64,000 nucleotides of DNA from Rhodospirillaceae bacterium (GTDB lineage: Bacteria; Pseudomonadota; Alphaproteobacteria; TMED109): contig CACEBX010000001.1 in the NCBI GenBank assembly GCA_902557845.1, positions 62,001 through 126,000 on the forward strand, in the 5' to 3' direction. The notes under the pieces are model-generated. The model worked only from the letters and a program-made list of their open reading frames with translations. It did no database searches and was not told the DNA's origin. Shown here piece after piece: positions 27,150 to 64,000 of the stretch. Position 1 is the first letter of the stretch. Every line of letters starts with the position of its first letter. The translations under genes were made by a program, and so were the position numbers.

Positions 27150-27869
27150 ATGAGAAAAAAACGAAAGGCAATTGATTTAAGGCCTATTACTTTTACTAAA
27201 GACTATATGGCAAATCCATTATCGTCTTGTCTAATAGAACATGGAGATACAAAAGTTATTTGCTCTGTATCTCTGGAAGAAATGGTTCCTAGATGGTTAA
27301 GAGGCAAAGGAAAAGGTTGGATTACATCAGAGTATTCAATGCTTCCTACAGCAACACATACTAGAACAGATAGAGAGTCTGTTAAAGGAAAGCTTTCCGG
27401 CAGAACTCAGGAAATTCAGAGGTTAATTGGAAGATCTATAAGAAATGCATGTAAATTAGACTTGTTAGGAGAAAGAGTTTTAAAGATAGACTGTGACGTG
27501 ATATCCGCGGATGGAGGAACCAGAACTGCTTCAATAAACGGAGCTTGGGTTGCAACAAGAATAGCACTTAATAAACTTAAAAATAAAGGCCTATTAAAAG
27601 AGGACCCTATGCCCTTTGGTGTTTCAGCAATTTCTTGTGGAATAATTAATAATAAAGTTTTTTTAGATTTAGATTATAATGAAGACTCAAACGCAGATGC
27701 AGACGCAAATTTTGTTTTCAATAATCAAGGAAAAATTATTGAGATACAATGTACAGGGGAGAAAGAAGCTATAACTAGCTCACAATTTTCAGAAATGTTT
27801 AAAATATCTAAAGAGTCTTGTCTAAATATTTTTAAATTGCAGCTATCTGCTGTAAAGGAGCGAGTATAA
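27150..27869 (+). CDS. rph: Ribonuclease PH
   Basis: A 239-residue phosphorolytic 3-prime exoribonuclease that trims tRNA ends. Conserved segments are RPITFTKDYMANPLSSCLIEHGDTKVIC at the start, WITSEYSMLPTATHTRT.RE near 65-80, GRTQEIQRLIGRS near 85, and VISADGGTRTASINGAW near 118 (acidic metal/phosphate site). The gene ends GTA TAA at 27869 and overlaps the presumed ATA start of rdgB by four bases. Confidence 0.96.
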   Translation: MRKKRKAIDLRPITFTKDYMANPLSSCLIEHGDTKVICSVSLEEMVPRWLRGKGKGWITSEYSMLPTATHTRTDRESVKGKLSGRTQEIQRLIGRSIRNACKLDLLGERVLKIDCDVISADGGTRTASINGAWVATRIALNKLKNKGLLKEDPMPFGVSAISCGIINNKVFLDLDYNEDSNADADANFVFNNQGKIIEIQCTGEKEAITSSQFSEMFKISKESCLNIFKLQLSAVKERV

Positions 27870-28459
27870 AGATTATATTAGCAACGCAAAACAAAAATAA
27901 AGTTATTGAATTCAACAGAATTTTTAAACCCTACAATGTTTCTTTTTTACCTGTTTCAGAACTTACTAATGTAAATCCAGAAGAAACAGGAAAAACTTTT
28001 TCTGAAAATGCCATAATAAAAGCTAAAGCTGCAGGAAAACTTATTAAATGGAAGCTCCCCTGCTTAGCAGATGATAGTGGTTTAAGTATAAAAATATTAT
28101 CTAATAAGCCTGGAGTTTACTCAGCTAGGTGGGCTGAGAATAATAATTATTCTGATGCTTTTAAGCTAATAAAAAATAAAATTCAAGAAAAAGGGGAAAC
28201 TATGGAAAGACAACCTGCTTTTTTTAGCTGCAGCTTAGCTCTTATAGAATCACATTCAAAAATATTTATTTTTGAAGGAGTATTAGAAGGAAATTTGACG
28301 TATCCACCTAGAGGAAAATTAGGTTTTGGATATGATCCAATTTTTATACCCAGTGGAAAAAAAAAAACCTTGGCAGAATTAAAAAGCATTGAGAAAAATA
28401 ATATTAGCCACCGTAAAATTGCGATAGACAAACTAATTAGGTTTTTACTTGAAAAATAG
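27866..28459 (+). CDS. rdgB: RdgB/HAM1 non-canonical purine NTP pyrophosphatase, with apparent ATA start
   Basis: A 197-residue reading frame with all RdgB landmarks: ILATQNKNKVIEF at the N-terminus, FSENAIIKAKAAG near 50, LADDSGL near 72, PGVYSARWA, GNLTYPPRGKLGFGYDPIF near 150-165 and the final SHRKIA. It removes ITP, dITP and XTP from the nucleotide pool. No ATG, GTG or TTG occurs in frame before residue 113 (28202). The conserved N-terminus instead begins at ATA (27866), five bases after a perfect AAGGAG (27855-27860). The overlap with rph reads ATAA where ATGA would be usual. It is followed by hemW with an 11-bp overlap. Confidence 0.85.
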   Translation: MKIILATQNKNKVIEFNRIFKPYNVSFLPVSELTNVNPEETGKTFSENAIIKAKAAGKLIKWKLPCLADDSGLSIKILSNKPGVYSARWAENNNYSDAFKLIKNKIQEKGETMERQPAFFSCSLALIESHSKIFIFEGVLEGNLTYPPRGKLGFGYDPIFIPSGKKKTLAELKSIEKNNISHRKIAIDKLIRFLLEK

Positions 28460-39089: not shown

Positions 39090-40099
39090 CTATTTTTTTT
39101 GGATTAATTTCCAAGTGTATATTTTCTCATTTAATCGCGCGGCTTTCTTTTCAGATTTATAACCAAAACCTGTAAACAAATCAATTCTACTTTTTCCCTT
39201 TATTGCAGAACCTTCATCGTGAGCTACTCCTAAAAAAATATTTTTTTTGTTGCTAGTACTTTGAATTATAATTGCTTCTCCATTTTTAATATACTTTTTA
39301 TCTACCGCTATACTCACATTTGGAACTAGGTCTACTTTAGCGCTTCCTTTTATTTCACCAGTATATTCCTCAAAAAATATATACCTTTCATTCATGTTCA
39401 TAAATTTTCTAGATATTTTTTTATCTTTATACAACCAATTTTTAATTTTATGCATATCAAGTTCTTCTTTTTTTATAAAACCATGCTTTATTAAGATTTT
39501 CCCCAAAGAAGAATAGCTTTTTTCATTACTACCAGCATATCTCACCTTTATAACTTTATTGTTTTCTAGTAACAACCTTCCCGAACCTTGAATGTGCAAA
39601 AAGTAAGCTTCTATTTCATTTTCTACCCAAGCAATCTCTAAATTATTATTTTTAAAATGTCCTTCGTTAATTACCTTTCTAGAAATTTTGTAATCAGTTT
39701 TTTCAGAAATAGTTTTAGGGTGTCTGTATATCGGGTATGAATTTTTTTTAGGATAATTGTATGCTTTGATTGCTGGCTCATAATAACCTGTTAACAATCC
39801 TTTTTTATCATTAGGCTTGTCTCCTGTTATTGCTATAAAATCAAAATTTTTATCAATATCCCTAAAAAATTTATCGTATTCAGATGCTTTATATTTATCG
39901 CAAGTCTTTTGGTAAGGATGTGTCCTCCCGATTTTTTTAAACTCAAAACAATCTTTAAAAATTGCTTTTACTGCCATATCTAAATTTTTTTTATTTTCAC
40001 TTAAATATTTAAATGGGCTGGCATATTTGATGGAAGGCTTGTAAAAATTAGTACAGCTAGCAAAAAAAAAACCCCTAACATTAGGCTAATTATTTTCAC
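39090..40099 (-). CDS. mltA: MltA-type membrane-bound lytic murein transglycosylase lipoprotein, broken by an apparent frameshift in its signal peptide
   Basis: The body is a clear MltA: KGLLTGYYEP near the start, YFLHIQGSGRLLLE in the middle, and a 3D-domain end with AHDEGSAIKGKSRIDLFTGFG. It cuts peptidoglycan glycan strands with 1,6-anhydro product formation. The first ATG of this frame is 39977, but conserved protein sequence continues upstream to an ASC lipobox at about 40055 and meets a stop (40086-40088) with no start between. In the neighbouring frame GTG at 40099 begins VKIISLMLGVFF. One extra base in the A10/T10 run (40062-40071) would join the two into a normal lipoprotein signal ending FFASC. 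GTG overlaps the timA stop as GTGA. Either a real shift, slippage-corrected expression, or an assembly error. Confidence 0.8.
40062..40071. repeat. A10 homopolymer at the mltA frame break
   Basis: Ten consecutive A on the plus strand (T on the coding strand) lie inside the mltA signal-peptide region. Eleven (or eight) would restore a single frame. Other 10-base runs in this window, in rdgB, the aminotransferase and the amidase, are in frame, so this one stands out. Confidence 0.9.
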
Positions 40100-40659
40100 T
40101 CTGATGTAACCTCAGATAATATCCAAGTAGGATCGTTGCTTCCTATAATTTTTTCAAAAGTCCAAACATCTTTAACATCAATTGTTTCTTCTTTCTTTTC
40201 TTGTATATTTTTTTGTGTAGATAAAAACATTACTTTTATCTTTGCAAGCTTCTTGACCATTTCTATTTTAATTATGGAGGATTTAACATTAGTTATTTGA
40301 AATGCTTTAACTTTGCTTTGTTTCTCTGTTTGTTCTTGAAAAGCCTTTAAAACCTTTGGGCTTAGAAGACGTTCAGCAGACTCTATATTATTATCTTTAT
40401 AAGAAGAAACTATGATTTTAAAAGCGCTTTCTGCTCCATGTAAAAATGACTCTATAGTGAAACCTTTATCTGCATTAATAAGTTCCTCTTCATTGCTGTT
40501 ATGTTTTGTGTCATAATTTTCATTATTGTTATTTACAAACTTAACTTTTTCATCTTGTGAATCTTTGCTCTCTATATTAGCTTTTTTTCCTAAAACCCTA
40601 TATAAATTAGCCGCTAGCACTCCAGCAATAATAGCAAATATAATAATGTCTATATACAG
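40096..40659 (-). CDS. Tim44-like domain membrane-anchored protein (TimA), apparent non-ATG start
   Basis: A 187-residue protein: an N-terminal membrane helix (DIIIFAIIAGVLAANLYRVLG), a charged linker and a C-terminal Tim44/TimA domain (FLHGAESAFKIIVSSYKDNNIESAERLLSPKVLKAFQ onward). It is likely an inner-membrane protein of import or quality-control type; the bacterial role is uncertain. The first usual start is GTG at 40620, which would cut the helix in half. Upstream, in frame, stand ATT (40662) and CTG (40659) after a GAGAGG box, bounded by a stop at 40665-40663. CTG has the best six-base spacing. TATAAT lies at 40684-40679. It precedes mltA with a 4-bp overlap. Confidence 0.75.
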   Translation of the reverse strand: MYIDIIIFAIIAGVLAANLYRVLGKKANIESKDSQDEKVKFVNNNNENYDTKHNSNEEELINADKGFTIESFLHGAESAFKIIVSSYKDNNIESAERLLSPKVLKAFQEQTEKQSKVKAFQITNVKSSIIKIEMVKKLAKIKVMFLSTQKNIQEKKEETIDVKDVWTFEKIIGSNDPTWILSEVTSE

Positions 40660-40758
40660 AATTTACCTCTCAAAAAAAATTATACTATATATATCTATAA
40701 TTTTTTTATTAAATAATGTAAATACAAATTATTAATTAATAATTGACAAATGAAAAAC

Positions 40759-41427
40759 CTACCAATAGTTCATTTTAAGGAATTTTAATAACCTATCGTG
40801 ATCTTGAGTTTCTTTTTTATCTGCAGATATTATTTTTTTTGAATATGAAAACTCTTTGCTTACAAAGGTTTTTTCAAACAACTTGCTCTTTGTCGTCTCT
40901 AGCCCTATATCTTTTTGTCTACCTCCATTCATTTCAAGAAAAACATCTGCAAGCAGCTCTGCATCTAGTAATGCTCCATGTTTTTTTCTTCTTGTAACGT
41001 CAATATGATATCTTTTGCACAAAGCGTCTAAATTATTAGCTGCACCTGGAAATATTTTTCTTGCCAATAAAAGCGTATCTAAGACTTTAAACTCTAGTAA
41101 GTTTTTTTTAGAGGCAGCATCTAGTTCATAATTTAAAAACCCAAGGTCAAACTTGGCATTATGTATAACTAGCTCAGAGCCTTTAATAAAATCTAAAAAT
41201 TTATCTGCTATTGATAAAAATATTGGTTTATCATATAAGAATTCATCAGTTAGTCCGTGAATTTTAAAAGCTTCTTCTGGCATTTTTCTGTTTGGATTTA
41301 TATATTGTTGAAAAATTTTACCAGTAGGATAATTATTTTCTAATTCCACACATCCTATTTCTACTATTTTATGACCTTTTGAAGGTTCTAGTCCTGTTGT
41401 TTCTATATCTAATGTAACTCTTCTCAT
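40759..41427 (-). CDS. dnaQ: DNA polymerase III epsilon (proofreading) subunit DnaQ
   Basis: A 222-residue DEDDh 3-prime to 5-prime exonuclease. VTLDIETTGLEPSKGHKIVEIG gives the ExoI Asp-Glu pair, VIHNAKFDLGFLNYEL near 92 ExoII, and RKKHGALLDAELLADV near 150 ExoIII with the catalytic histidine. It proofreads within the replicase. The start overlaps coaE by 4 bp. The secB gene usually found between dnaQ and timA is missing; only about 95 bp remain there. Confidence 0.95.
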   Translation of the reverse strand: MRRVTLDIETTGLEPSKGHKIVEIGCVELENNYPTGKIFQQYINPNRKMPEEAFKIHGLTDEFLYDKPIFLSIADKFLDFIKGSELVIHNAKFDLGFLNYELDAASKKNLLEFKVLDTLLLARKIFPGAANNLDALCKRYHIDVTRRKKHGALLDAELLADVFLEMNGGRQKDIGLETTKSKLFEKTFVSKEFSYSKKIISADKKETQDHDRLLKFLKMNYW

Positions 41428-61733: not shown

Positions 61734-64000
61734 ATAATTCGTCTAATACATAATTTAAAATATTTCCCTTTTCTATATAATTAAACTCCTTAGCTGTATC
61801 AATTCTCAAAATACCTGTTACGCTATTTACAATTTTGTTGCTAATATCGTCAAAAATATTAATTTCTACTTTTTTAGTGTTTCTTTTTCTTATATTTTCT
61901 AAATCTATTTTTATATCTACAAGTTCATTTCCTTGTAAATGCAGGTCATTAATAATTATATCTGGACTTAATTGAATTGGCAAAACTCCCATTCCTATTA
62001 AATTAGACCTATGTATTCGTTCAAAACTTTCAACTATCACAGCTCTTACCCCTAAAAGCTTTGTTCCTTTTGCCGCCCAATCTCTTGATGATCCTGTTCC
62101 ATATTCTTTGCCTGCAAATATGACTAAAGGCCTTTTTCTTTCTTTGTACTGTTCAGCAGCATCATAAATGGTCATCACTTTGTTTTCAGGAAATAACTTT
62201 GTGAATCCGCCCTCTTTTTCAGGAGTAATTTTATTTCTTAATCTAACGTTAGCGAAGGTTCCTCTCACCATTATGTCATGACTTCCTCTTCTTGCTCCAT
62301 AAGAATTAAAGTTATGCTTATTTACTTGTTTTTGGCTTAGATATTCACCAGCAGGACTCTCTTCTTTTATAGATCCCGCAGGCGAAATATGGTCTGTAGT
62401 AATAGAGTCTCCTAATAAAGCTAATATTCTTGCTCCTTTTACGTTTTTTAGATTATTTTCTATTAAATTCTTATCAGATAAAAAAGGAGGATTCTGGACA
62501 TAAGTACTTGCAGCGTTCCAGTTATAAGTAGAACTTTCTGGTGCTTGGATTTTATTCCATTTTGAATTTTTTTCTCCAACATTTTTGTATCTATTAATAT
62601 ACAGTTCTGCCTCGATTTTATCGAGAAGATCGTTGACTAACTTAGAGTCTGGCCAAACGTCATCTAAATATACGTTATTTCTATCTTTGTCTAAACCTAA
62701 AGGTTCTTTTGTAATGTCTTTAGTGGTAGAGCCTAATATAGAGTACGCAACAACTAGGGGTGGTGAAGCTAACCAGTTAGCTTTAATTAAAGGATGAACT
62801 CTTCCCTCAAAGTTCCTATTACCTGATAGAACAGAGCTAACATTTAAATTATTTTTTAAAACTTCTTTCTCTACCTCATTATCTAGGGGCCCTGAGTTTC
62901 CAATACATGTAGTGCATCCATATCCAACAACGTTAAACCCAAGTTTCTCTAAATAAGTTAAAAGACCTAGTTTTTCTAAATAATCTTTAACAACTTGGCT
63001 TCCTGGGGCTAGTGAAGTTTTTACCCAGCTTTTTTTTGATAGCCCTTTTTCAAAAGCTTTTTTTGCTAATAGACCGGCCGCTATCATCAAGTAAGGGTTG
63101 GCAGTATTTGTACAACTAGTTATGGCAGCTAAAACTACATCCCCGTTATTAAGCTTCTTCGACCTTTGTGTTTTAGGGTCAACATTGGCTTCTTTAACTA
63201 CCTCTATACTTCTTTTATAAACATCTGCTAGCAGTACCTTGTCTTGAGGCCGTTTTGGTCCAGCTAAAACTGAATGTATTTTGGATATATCGAGTTCAAT
63301 TTCTTCGTTATATAATCTTTGTATTTGAGACTCTTTATTGTAATCGTACCAAAGACCTTGTTCTTTAGCATACTTTTCAACTATCAAGCAGTGACTTTCA
63401 TCTCTTCCAGTATTTTTAAGATATTTTATTGTTTCAGTATCTATGGGAAAAAAACCACAAGTAGCTCCATACTCTGGAGCCATGTTAGCAATTGTAGCCC
63501 TATCTGCTAAAGTAAGAGAGTTTAGTCCTTCACCATGAAATTCAACAAATTTATTTACAACTCCATGACTTCTTAAAATATTAGTTATGGTAAGAACTAA
63601 GTCTGTAGGAGTTGCATTCCCTATTAATTTGCCATGTAAATTTACTCCTACTACTTTAGGAGGCGACATTGCAATTGCTTCTCCTAACATTACAGCTTCA
63701 GCTTCAATTCCACCTACACCCCAACCTAAAACAGATAATCCATTTATCATGGTAGTATGACTATCAGTTCCTACTACACTATCAGGATAAAGAGTATTAT
63801 CTTTTTTATTATGCCAAACTACTTTTGCCAAGAATTCCATATTAACTTGATGACATATTCCTACACCAGGTGGAATTACTCTAAAGTTTTCAAGGTTTTT
63901 TTGACCCCATTTAAGAAACTTGTATCTTTCTTGATTTCTTTCAAACTCCAACTCAGTATTTATACTAAGGGCTTCTGAAGAAGCATATTTATCAACCATC
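61726..64000 (-). CDS. acnA: Aconitate hydratase AcnA (partial, N-terminus beyond window)
   Basis: About 757 C-terminal residues of an AcnA/IRP-type aconitase of roughly 890. The visible part starts just after the DHS-like region with VDKYASSEAL. The [4Fe-4S] cysteines are in ITSCTNTANPYLM near 290 and YGCTTCIGNSGPL near 360 of the visible part. The swivel domain contains GKEYGTGSSRDWAAKG and FERIHRSNLIGMGVLPIQ. It isomerises citrate and isocitrate in the TCA cycle. The gene runs off the right edge. Confidence 0.96.
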   Translation of the reverse strand, partial: MVDKYASSEALSINTELEFERNQERYKFLKWGQKNLENFRVIPPGVGICHQVNMEFLAKVVWHNKKDNTLYPDSVVGTDSHTTMINGLSVLGWGVGGIEAEAVMLGEAIAMSPPKVVGVNLHGKLIGNATPTDLVLTITNILRSHGVVNKFVEFHGEGLNSLTLADRATIANMAPEYGATCGFFPIDTETIKYLKNTGRDESHCLIVEKYAKEQGLWYDYNKESQIQRLYNEEIELDISKIHSVLAGPKRPQDKVLLADVYKRSIEVVKEANVDPKTQRSKKLNNGDVVLAAITSCTNTANPYLMIAAGLLAKKAFEKGLSKKSWVKTSLAPGSQVVKDYLEKLGLLTYLEKLGFNVVGYGCTTCIGNSGPLDNEVEKEVLKNNLNVSSVLSGNRNFEGRVHPLIKANWLASPPLVVAYSILGSTTKDITKEPLGLDKDRNNVYLDDVWPDSKLVNDLLDKIEAELYINRYKNVGEKNSKWNKIQAPESSTYNWNAASTYVQNPPFLSDKNLIENNLKNVKGARILALLGDSITTDHISPAGSIKEESPAGEYLSQKQVNKHNFNSYGARRGSHDIMVRGTFANVRLRNKITPEKEGGFTKLFPENKVMTIYDAAEQYKERKRPLVIFAGKEYGTGSSRDWAAKGTKLLGVRAVIVESFERIHRSNLIGMGVLPIQLSPDIIINDLHLQGNELVDIKIDLENIRKRNTKKVEINIFDDISNKIVNSVTGILRIDTAKEFNYIEKGNILNYVLDELSN

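Follow-up and report, generated by a model that had tools for sequence, protein, structure and literature searches.

A conserved CTG codon as the probable start of timA in three sister genera of Alphaproteobacteria

Few bacterial rare start codons have been worked out so far, most of them in infC and sigR. According to the account of the Streptomyces gene in PMC5472188, rare starts are repressed by IF3, infC starts at AUU in Escherichia coli and at ATC in Streptomyces, and the IF3-repressed GTC start of Streptomyces sigR, retained in 32/34 Streptomyces genomes, represents a conserved case. CUG is scarce among annotated bacterial starts, PMC9845219 citing 20 such ORFs (0.024%) across 69 model genomes, and is described as initiating poorly when tested in E. 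coli and in chloroplasts (PMC9845219; PMC11497404), E. coli complexes being less stable at CUG than at AUG, GUG or UUG (PMC11497404). The Tim44-like protein TimA is reported to be an inner-membrane protein in Caulobacter (PMC2797634). Searches of the open-access literature on CTG/CUG and other non-AUG starts and on Tim44/TimA listed no report of a rare timA start. Here, we describe a timA gene that very probably starts at a CTG codon shared by three sister genera.

The timA locus and its N-terminal region

The gene lies in a 64,000-nt stretch of DNA (positions 62,001 to 126,000 of contig CACEBX010000001.1), which as a whole is called the window, from a Rhodospirillaceae bacterium of a marine alphaproteobacterial lineage whose genome (G000) is 72% complete and in 69 contigs. 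On the minus strand, the start region reads GAGAGG TAA ATT CTG TAT ATA GAC ATT ATT ATA TTT GCT ATT ATT GCT GGA GTG, and the features in and around it are as follows, with counts referring to the eight genomes of the clade defined below.

40759–41427, minus strand: dnaQ-like exonuclease gene upstream of timA (Pfam RNase_T, 2.5e-37)
40666–40671, minus strand: GAGAGG, Shine-Dalgarno-like, 6 nt before the CTG; core spacing 5–7 nt in 8/8 genomes
40663–40665, minus strand: in-frame stop TAA, with ATT alone between it and the CTG
40660–40662, minus strand: ATT, rival near-cognate start, present in 4/8 genomes
40657–40659, minus strand: CTG, proposed timA start codon, invariant in 8/8 genomes and the sole all-CTG column among 301 all-leucine columns
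40653, minus strand: ATA, varying isoleucine codon at the helix start (ATA in five genomes, ATT in three)
40600–40656, minus strand: N-terminal hydrophobic helix, codons 2–20; hydropathy peak 2.31, coding-like codon changes
40618–40620, minus strand: GTG, first canonical start, inside the helix; GTG in 3/8 genomes, GTT, GTA or GTC in the rest
40108–40485, minus strand: Tim44-like domain (Pfam PF04280, residues 60–185)
40096–40659, minus strand: proposed timA coding sequence from CTG to the stop TGA (40098–40096), 187 codons; frame open from the ATT on, PF04280 match
39090–40085, minus strand: mltA, downstream of timA (Pfam MltA, 3.5e-37); start and body in different frames

The TimA translation matched the Pfam Tim44 family PF04280 at 1.2e-15 with 58.4 bits, above the gathering cut-off of 29.6, and its 19-residue hydropathy reached 2.31 from the CTG codon compared with a maximum of 0.98 in the remaining protein. 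The same helix-plus-domain layout is found in Caulobacter TimA. The N-terminal membrane helix was conserved among relatives, including sister genera in which an ATG, GTG or TTG start precedes it, and in the window no ATG, GTG or TTG occurred in the timA frame between the stop TAA at 40665 and the GTG at 40620. The first-pass annotation had already placed a conserved TimA helix upstream of the first GTG and had taken the in-frame stop at 40665–40663 as the boundary of the frame; the hydropathy profile and the relatives bear out the helix, a TAA is read at that stop on the minus strand, and all coordinates given for the start region proved correct when the sequence was re-read.

Conservation of the CTG codon and the adjoining mltA frame break

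The codon aligned with the proposed start was CTG in all eight genomes in which timA was found in three sister genera, g1 (G000, G001 and G002), g3 (G005) and g8 (G010, G013, G016 and G022), here called the CTG clade, and no ATG, GTG or TTG lay between the upstream stop and the CTG in any of the eight. Of the first 20 timA codons no other was invariant, in genomes where CTG accounts for 1.9–4.3% of leucine codons. As a control, we used 301 columns from 27 genes with leucine in all of the 6–8 clade genomes compared; a single column was CTG throughout, namely the timA start, and the runners-up had CTG in 3/6 and 3/7 genomes. The CTG of timA is thus conserved beyond chance, by its presence in 8/8 genomes and its standing as 1/301 leucine columns. 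ATT 40662, CTG 40659 and ATA 40653 had been named as candidates in the first-pass annotation, with CTG favoured by the spacing of GAGAGG, and the seven related genomes single out the CTG: in the alignment of homologues it was invariant, the ATT preceded it in 4/8 genomes, and ATA 40653 proved to be a varying isoleucine codon. Related genomes were also searched for an ATG or a frameshift in timA that would speak against the rare start, and neither was present.

A Shine-Dalgarno-like core ended 5–7 nt before the timA CTG in all eight clade genomes, and strict cores (AGGA, GGAG, GAGG or AAGG) were present at 7/8 of these sites compared with 74/268 ordinary G000 starts, G001 having only the weak core AGGT. 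Among the 28 genome pairs, timA codons 2–14 differed 37, 16 and 161 times at positions 1, 2 and 3, respectively, and because the differences fall mostly at third positions, these codons are read as coding. The next ATG, GTG or TTG after the CTG was located at codon 61 in G001 and at codon 53 in both G013 and G016, so that initiation further downstream would cost TimA its helix and additional sequence. Gene callers limited to ATG, GTG and TTG would miss the CTG and either cut into the TimA membrane anchor or remove more of the protein.

The CTG clade was monophyletic (100/98 by infC and 100/100 by TimA), and TimA protein identity fell to about 39% across its three genera. Because the eight genomes share descent, the conservation of the CTG has one origin rather than reflecting eight independent events. 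Between G000 and G001, 25/30 non-ATG starts were unchanged; retention of a weak start within this genus is therefore common and does not alone show that weakness was selected; the comparison of start turnover across genera was small, with three non-ATG pairs with G010. The conserved CTG is a real feature of timA, and the sequence comparison gives good support to a predicted start site at CTG 40659.

Within the family, timA was found in 20/28 genomes and not found in the other 8/28, the search of the order having covered the same 28. The 12 family timA genes outside the clade start at GTG (G006, G011 and G023), TTG (G004 and G007) or ATG (seven g7 genomes), and these canonical starts sit one codon earlier than the CTG, before a Gln codon. 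Outside the family but in the same class, a set of 28 loci was enlarged by 40 picks, for the most part in smaller genomes, out of 224 genomes with a match. Of the resulting 68 loci, L224, a short locus, and L209, misread with stops in frame, were dropped; the remaining 66 timA loci comprised 55 ATG, 7 GTG and 4 TTG starts, and none of the 66 was without a canonical start near the TimA N-terminus.

The start of mltA lies near or overlaps the timA stop. In all eight clade genomes, the MltA body is out of frame with this start, from which it is separated by runs of 9–13 T inside a lipoprotein-like signal peptide, the first reading frame ending shortly after the T run.

40099–40062, minus strand: mltA frame break at a T run in the window; also found at loci L077, L073, L080, L081, L083, L085 and L087

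With random run lengths, the chance of 8/8 genomes being out of frame would be about 0.04, or (2/3)^8, these genomes being related. The break was absent in G007 and G011, where mltA begins in frame. Runs of nine T are given as a known slippage length in PMC1088944, and the mltA break is a candidate for transcriptional slippage or phase variation.

Initiation at the CTG and alternative readings

It is very probable that timA starts at CTG 40659. In the proposed mechanism, ribosomes would bind the purine-rich GAGAGG six bases upstream of the CTG, and translation would begin at the CTG itself with the usual initiator tRNA (anticodon CAT), which would match CUG at bases 2 and 3 with a mismatch at base 1, yielding a predicted N-terminus fMet-YIDIIIFAIIAG... 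that would anchor the Tim44-domain protein in the membrane. The CUG may in turn hold TimA output low, and from infC (AUU) and Streptomyces sigR (GTC), we infer that IF3, which discriminates against rare starts, may throttle initiation at the timA CUG.

The initiator tRNA of G000 contains the anticodon CAT and the class-wide anticodon stem; this stem, TCAGG/CCTGA, was present in 27/30 initiator tRNA loci examined within the family and beyond it, the other three giving no motif match. Three anticodon-stem G-C pairs are characteristic of the E. coli initiator tRNA, and in the initiator tRNA at L061 (1498–1574, minus strand) the first of these pairs is replaced by A-U, as it is in 27/30 alphaproteobacterial loci. 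Recoding by an altered initiator tRNA was rejected, since the initiator anticodon is CAT and the 27 tRNA genes of G000, a 72% complete genome, include no altered initiator. Loss of IF3 was likewise rejected, since infC was present in 12/14 genomes searched, including all eight of the CTG clade; the two of these 14 in which infC was not found, G003 and G006, are incomplete. Given that the initiator tRNA is ordinary and the IF3 gene is present, CUG should act as a weak near-cognate start, and the timA CTG is most likely just such a weak initiator, decoded by that tRNA.

Translation might instead begin one codon upstream at ATT 40662, in the manner of E. coli infC, as ATT is among the known rare starts (PMC5472188) and directly precedes the CTG in G000, G002, G010 and G022. 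However, the other four clade genomes have AAG, AAT, ACT or TTT at this codon and the Shine-Dalgarno spacing to ATT 40662 is only 3 nt, and we regard this start as improbable. As a shared timA start, the ATT was rejected because it precedes the CTG in just 4/8 genomes; where it is present, both ATT and CTG could be usable. A canonical start is available at GTG 40620, a codon that G000, G002 and G005 have in common, and the helix would then be untranslated, TimA beginning at this GTG or another downstream codon; yet the codons before the GTG evolve as coding sequence with third-position changes, its equivalent is absent in 5/8 clade genomes, and the helix is kept in sister genera whose ATG, GTG or TTG start precedes it, which leaves such a start extremely improbable.

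The CTG could also be kept for another reason, such as a site over the start to which an RNA or a protein binds, while initiation proceeds by upstream reading with slippage. The T8 run ahead of the timA site in G000 and the slippage-like frame breaks in the adjoining mltA would fit such a reading, but an in-frame stop lies just 1–7 codons before the timA CTG in 6/8 genomes, and the 14 and 22 open codons before it in G002 and G001, respectively, contain no in-frame ATG, GTG or TTG; we consider it highly improbable. Finally, a sequencing or assembly error concealing an ATG or a frameshift might be suspected in a genome that is 72% complete and in 69 contigs, but the recurrence of the same CTG in seven other genomes reduces this prospect to nearly nil.

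Other rare starts and comparison with known systems

The likely start of infC was ATA in 10/12 family loci (L129 and others), the exceptions being G013, in which the gene is cut at a contig end, and G009, with an ATC candidate. Because infC is known for rare starts, their recovery by the same reading of N-termini supports the approach. In the window, a further gene had no ATG, GTG or TTG before codon 123 of its frame.

27836–28456, plus strand: rdgB/HAM1, candidate start ATA at 27866; no canonical start before the conserved N-terminus

Candidate rdgB starts were ATA after AAAGGAG in G000, ATA in G013, and ATT after AAGGA in G010, G016 and G022; the rdgB start is ATG in G001 and G005. At L104 (12166–13176, minus strand), a gene that is glycosyltransferase-like by its translation has a candidate ATA after GAGG, and upstream of its first canonical start, 52/62 residues were shared with G001, with mostly third-position changes.

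For a screen of rare starts, 850,915 bases of G000 and 735,564 bases of G001 supplied 360 G000 ORFs that had an ortholog and a length of 100 codons or more. The screen returned 11 ORFs, of which timA and the glycosyltransferase-like gene of L104 were read as real. The remaining ORFs were set aside on reading as probable overlap with a tRNA or probable antisense or fragment matches. The screen was incomplete, as it missed rdgB, which was found by eye. Since infC, rdgB and the glycosyltransferase-like gene show candidates too, rare starts recur in these genomes as a minor habit. It is conceivable, though rather unlikely, that the clade keeps its rare-start genes (timA with CUG, rdgB with AUA or AUU, infC with AUA) as an IF3-gated regulon, in which case slow-growing cells in the ocean would have their levels of one membrane protein and one nucleotide-sanitising enzyme set by the ratio of IF3 to ribosomes.

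Kept through three genera while protein identity fell to about 39%, the CUG of timA offers good comparative evidence that this codon can be a durable natural bacterial initiator, and the gene provides a naturally occurring example in which to ask whether weakness of the start is itself selected. Annotated CUG ORFs share CUG as the initiator but are annotations only, whereas the timA CUG is backed by a three-genus comparison. TimA of Caulobacter is likewise Tim44-like and membrane-bound; the difference from other alphaproteobacterial timA genes lies in the start codon, the 66 loci from other families all having ATG, GTG or TTG. The infC gene also has a conserved rare start, including in the present family, but differs in being autoregulated by its own product, and we know of no role of TimA in initiation. 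The likeness to sigR lies in a start outside ATG, GTG and TTG, a strong Shine-Dalgarno sequence and a lineage-wide presence (32/34 for sigR, 8/8 for timA), while the codon and the gene are different and the IF3 effect, demonstrated for sigR, would extend to timA by analogy. The timA CTG would be another instance of the conserved non-canonical starts already exemplified by infC and sigR.
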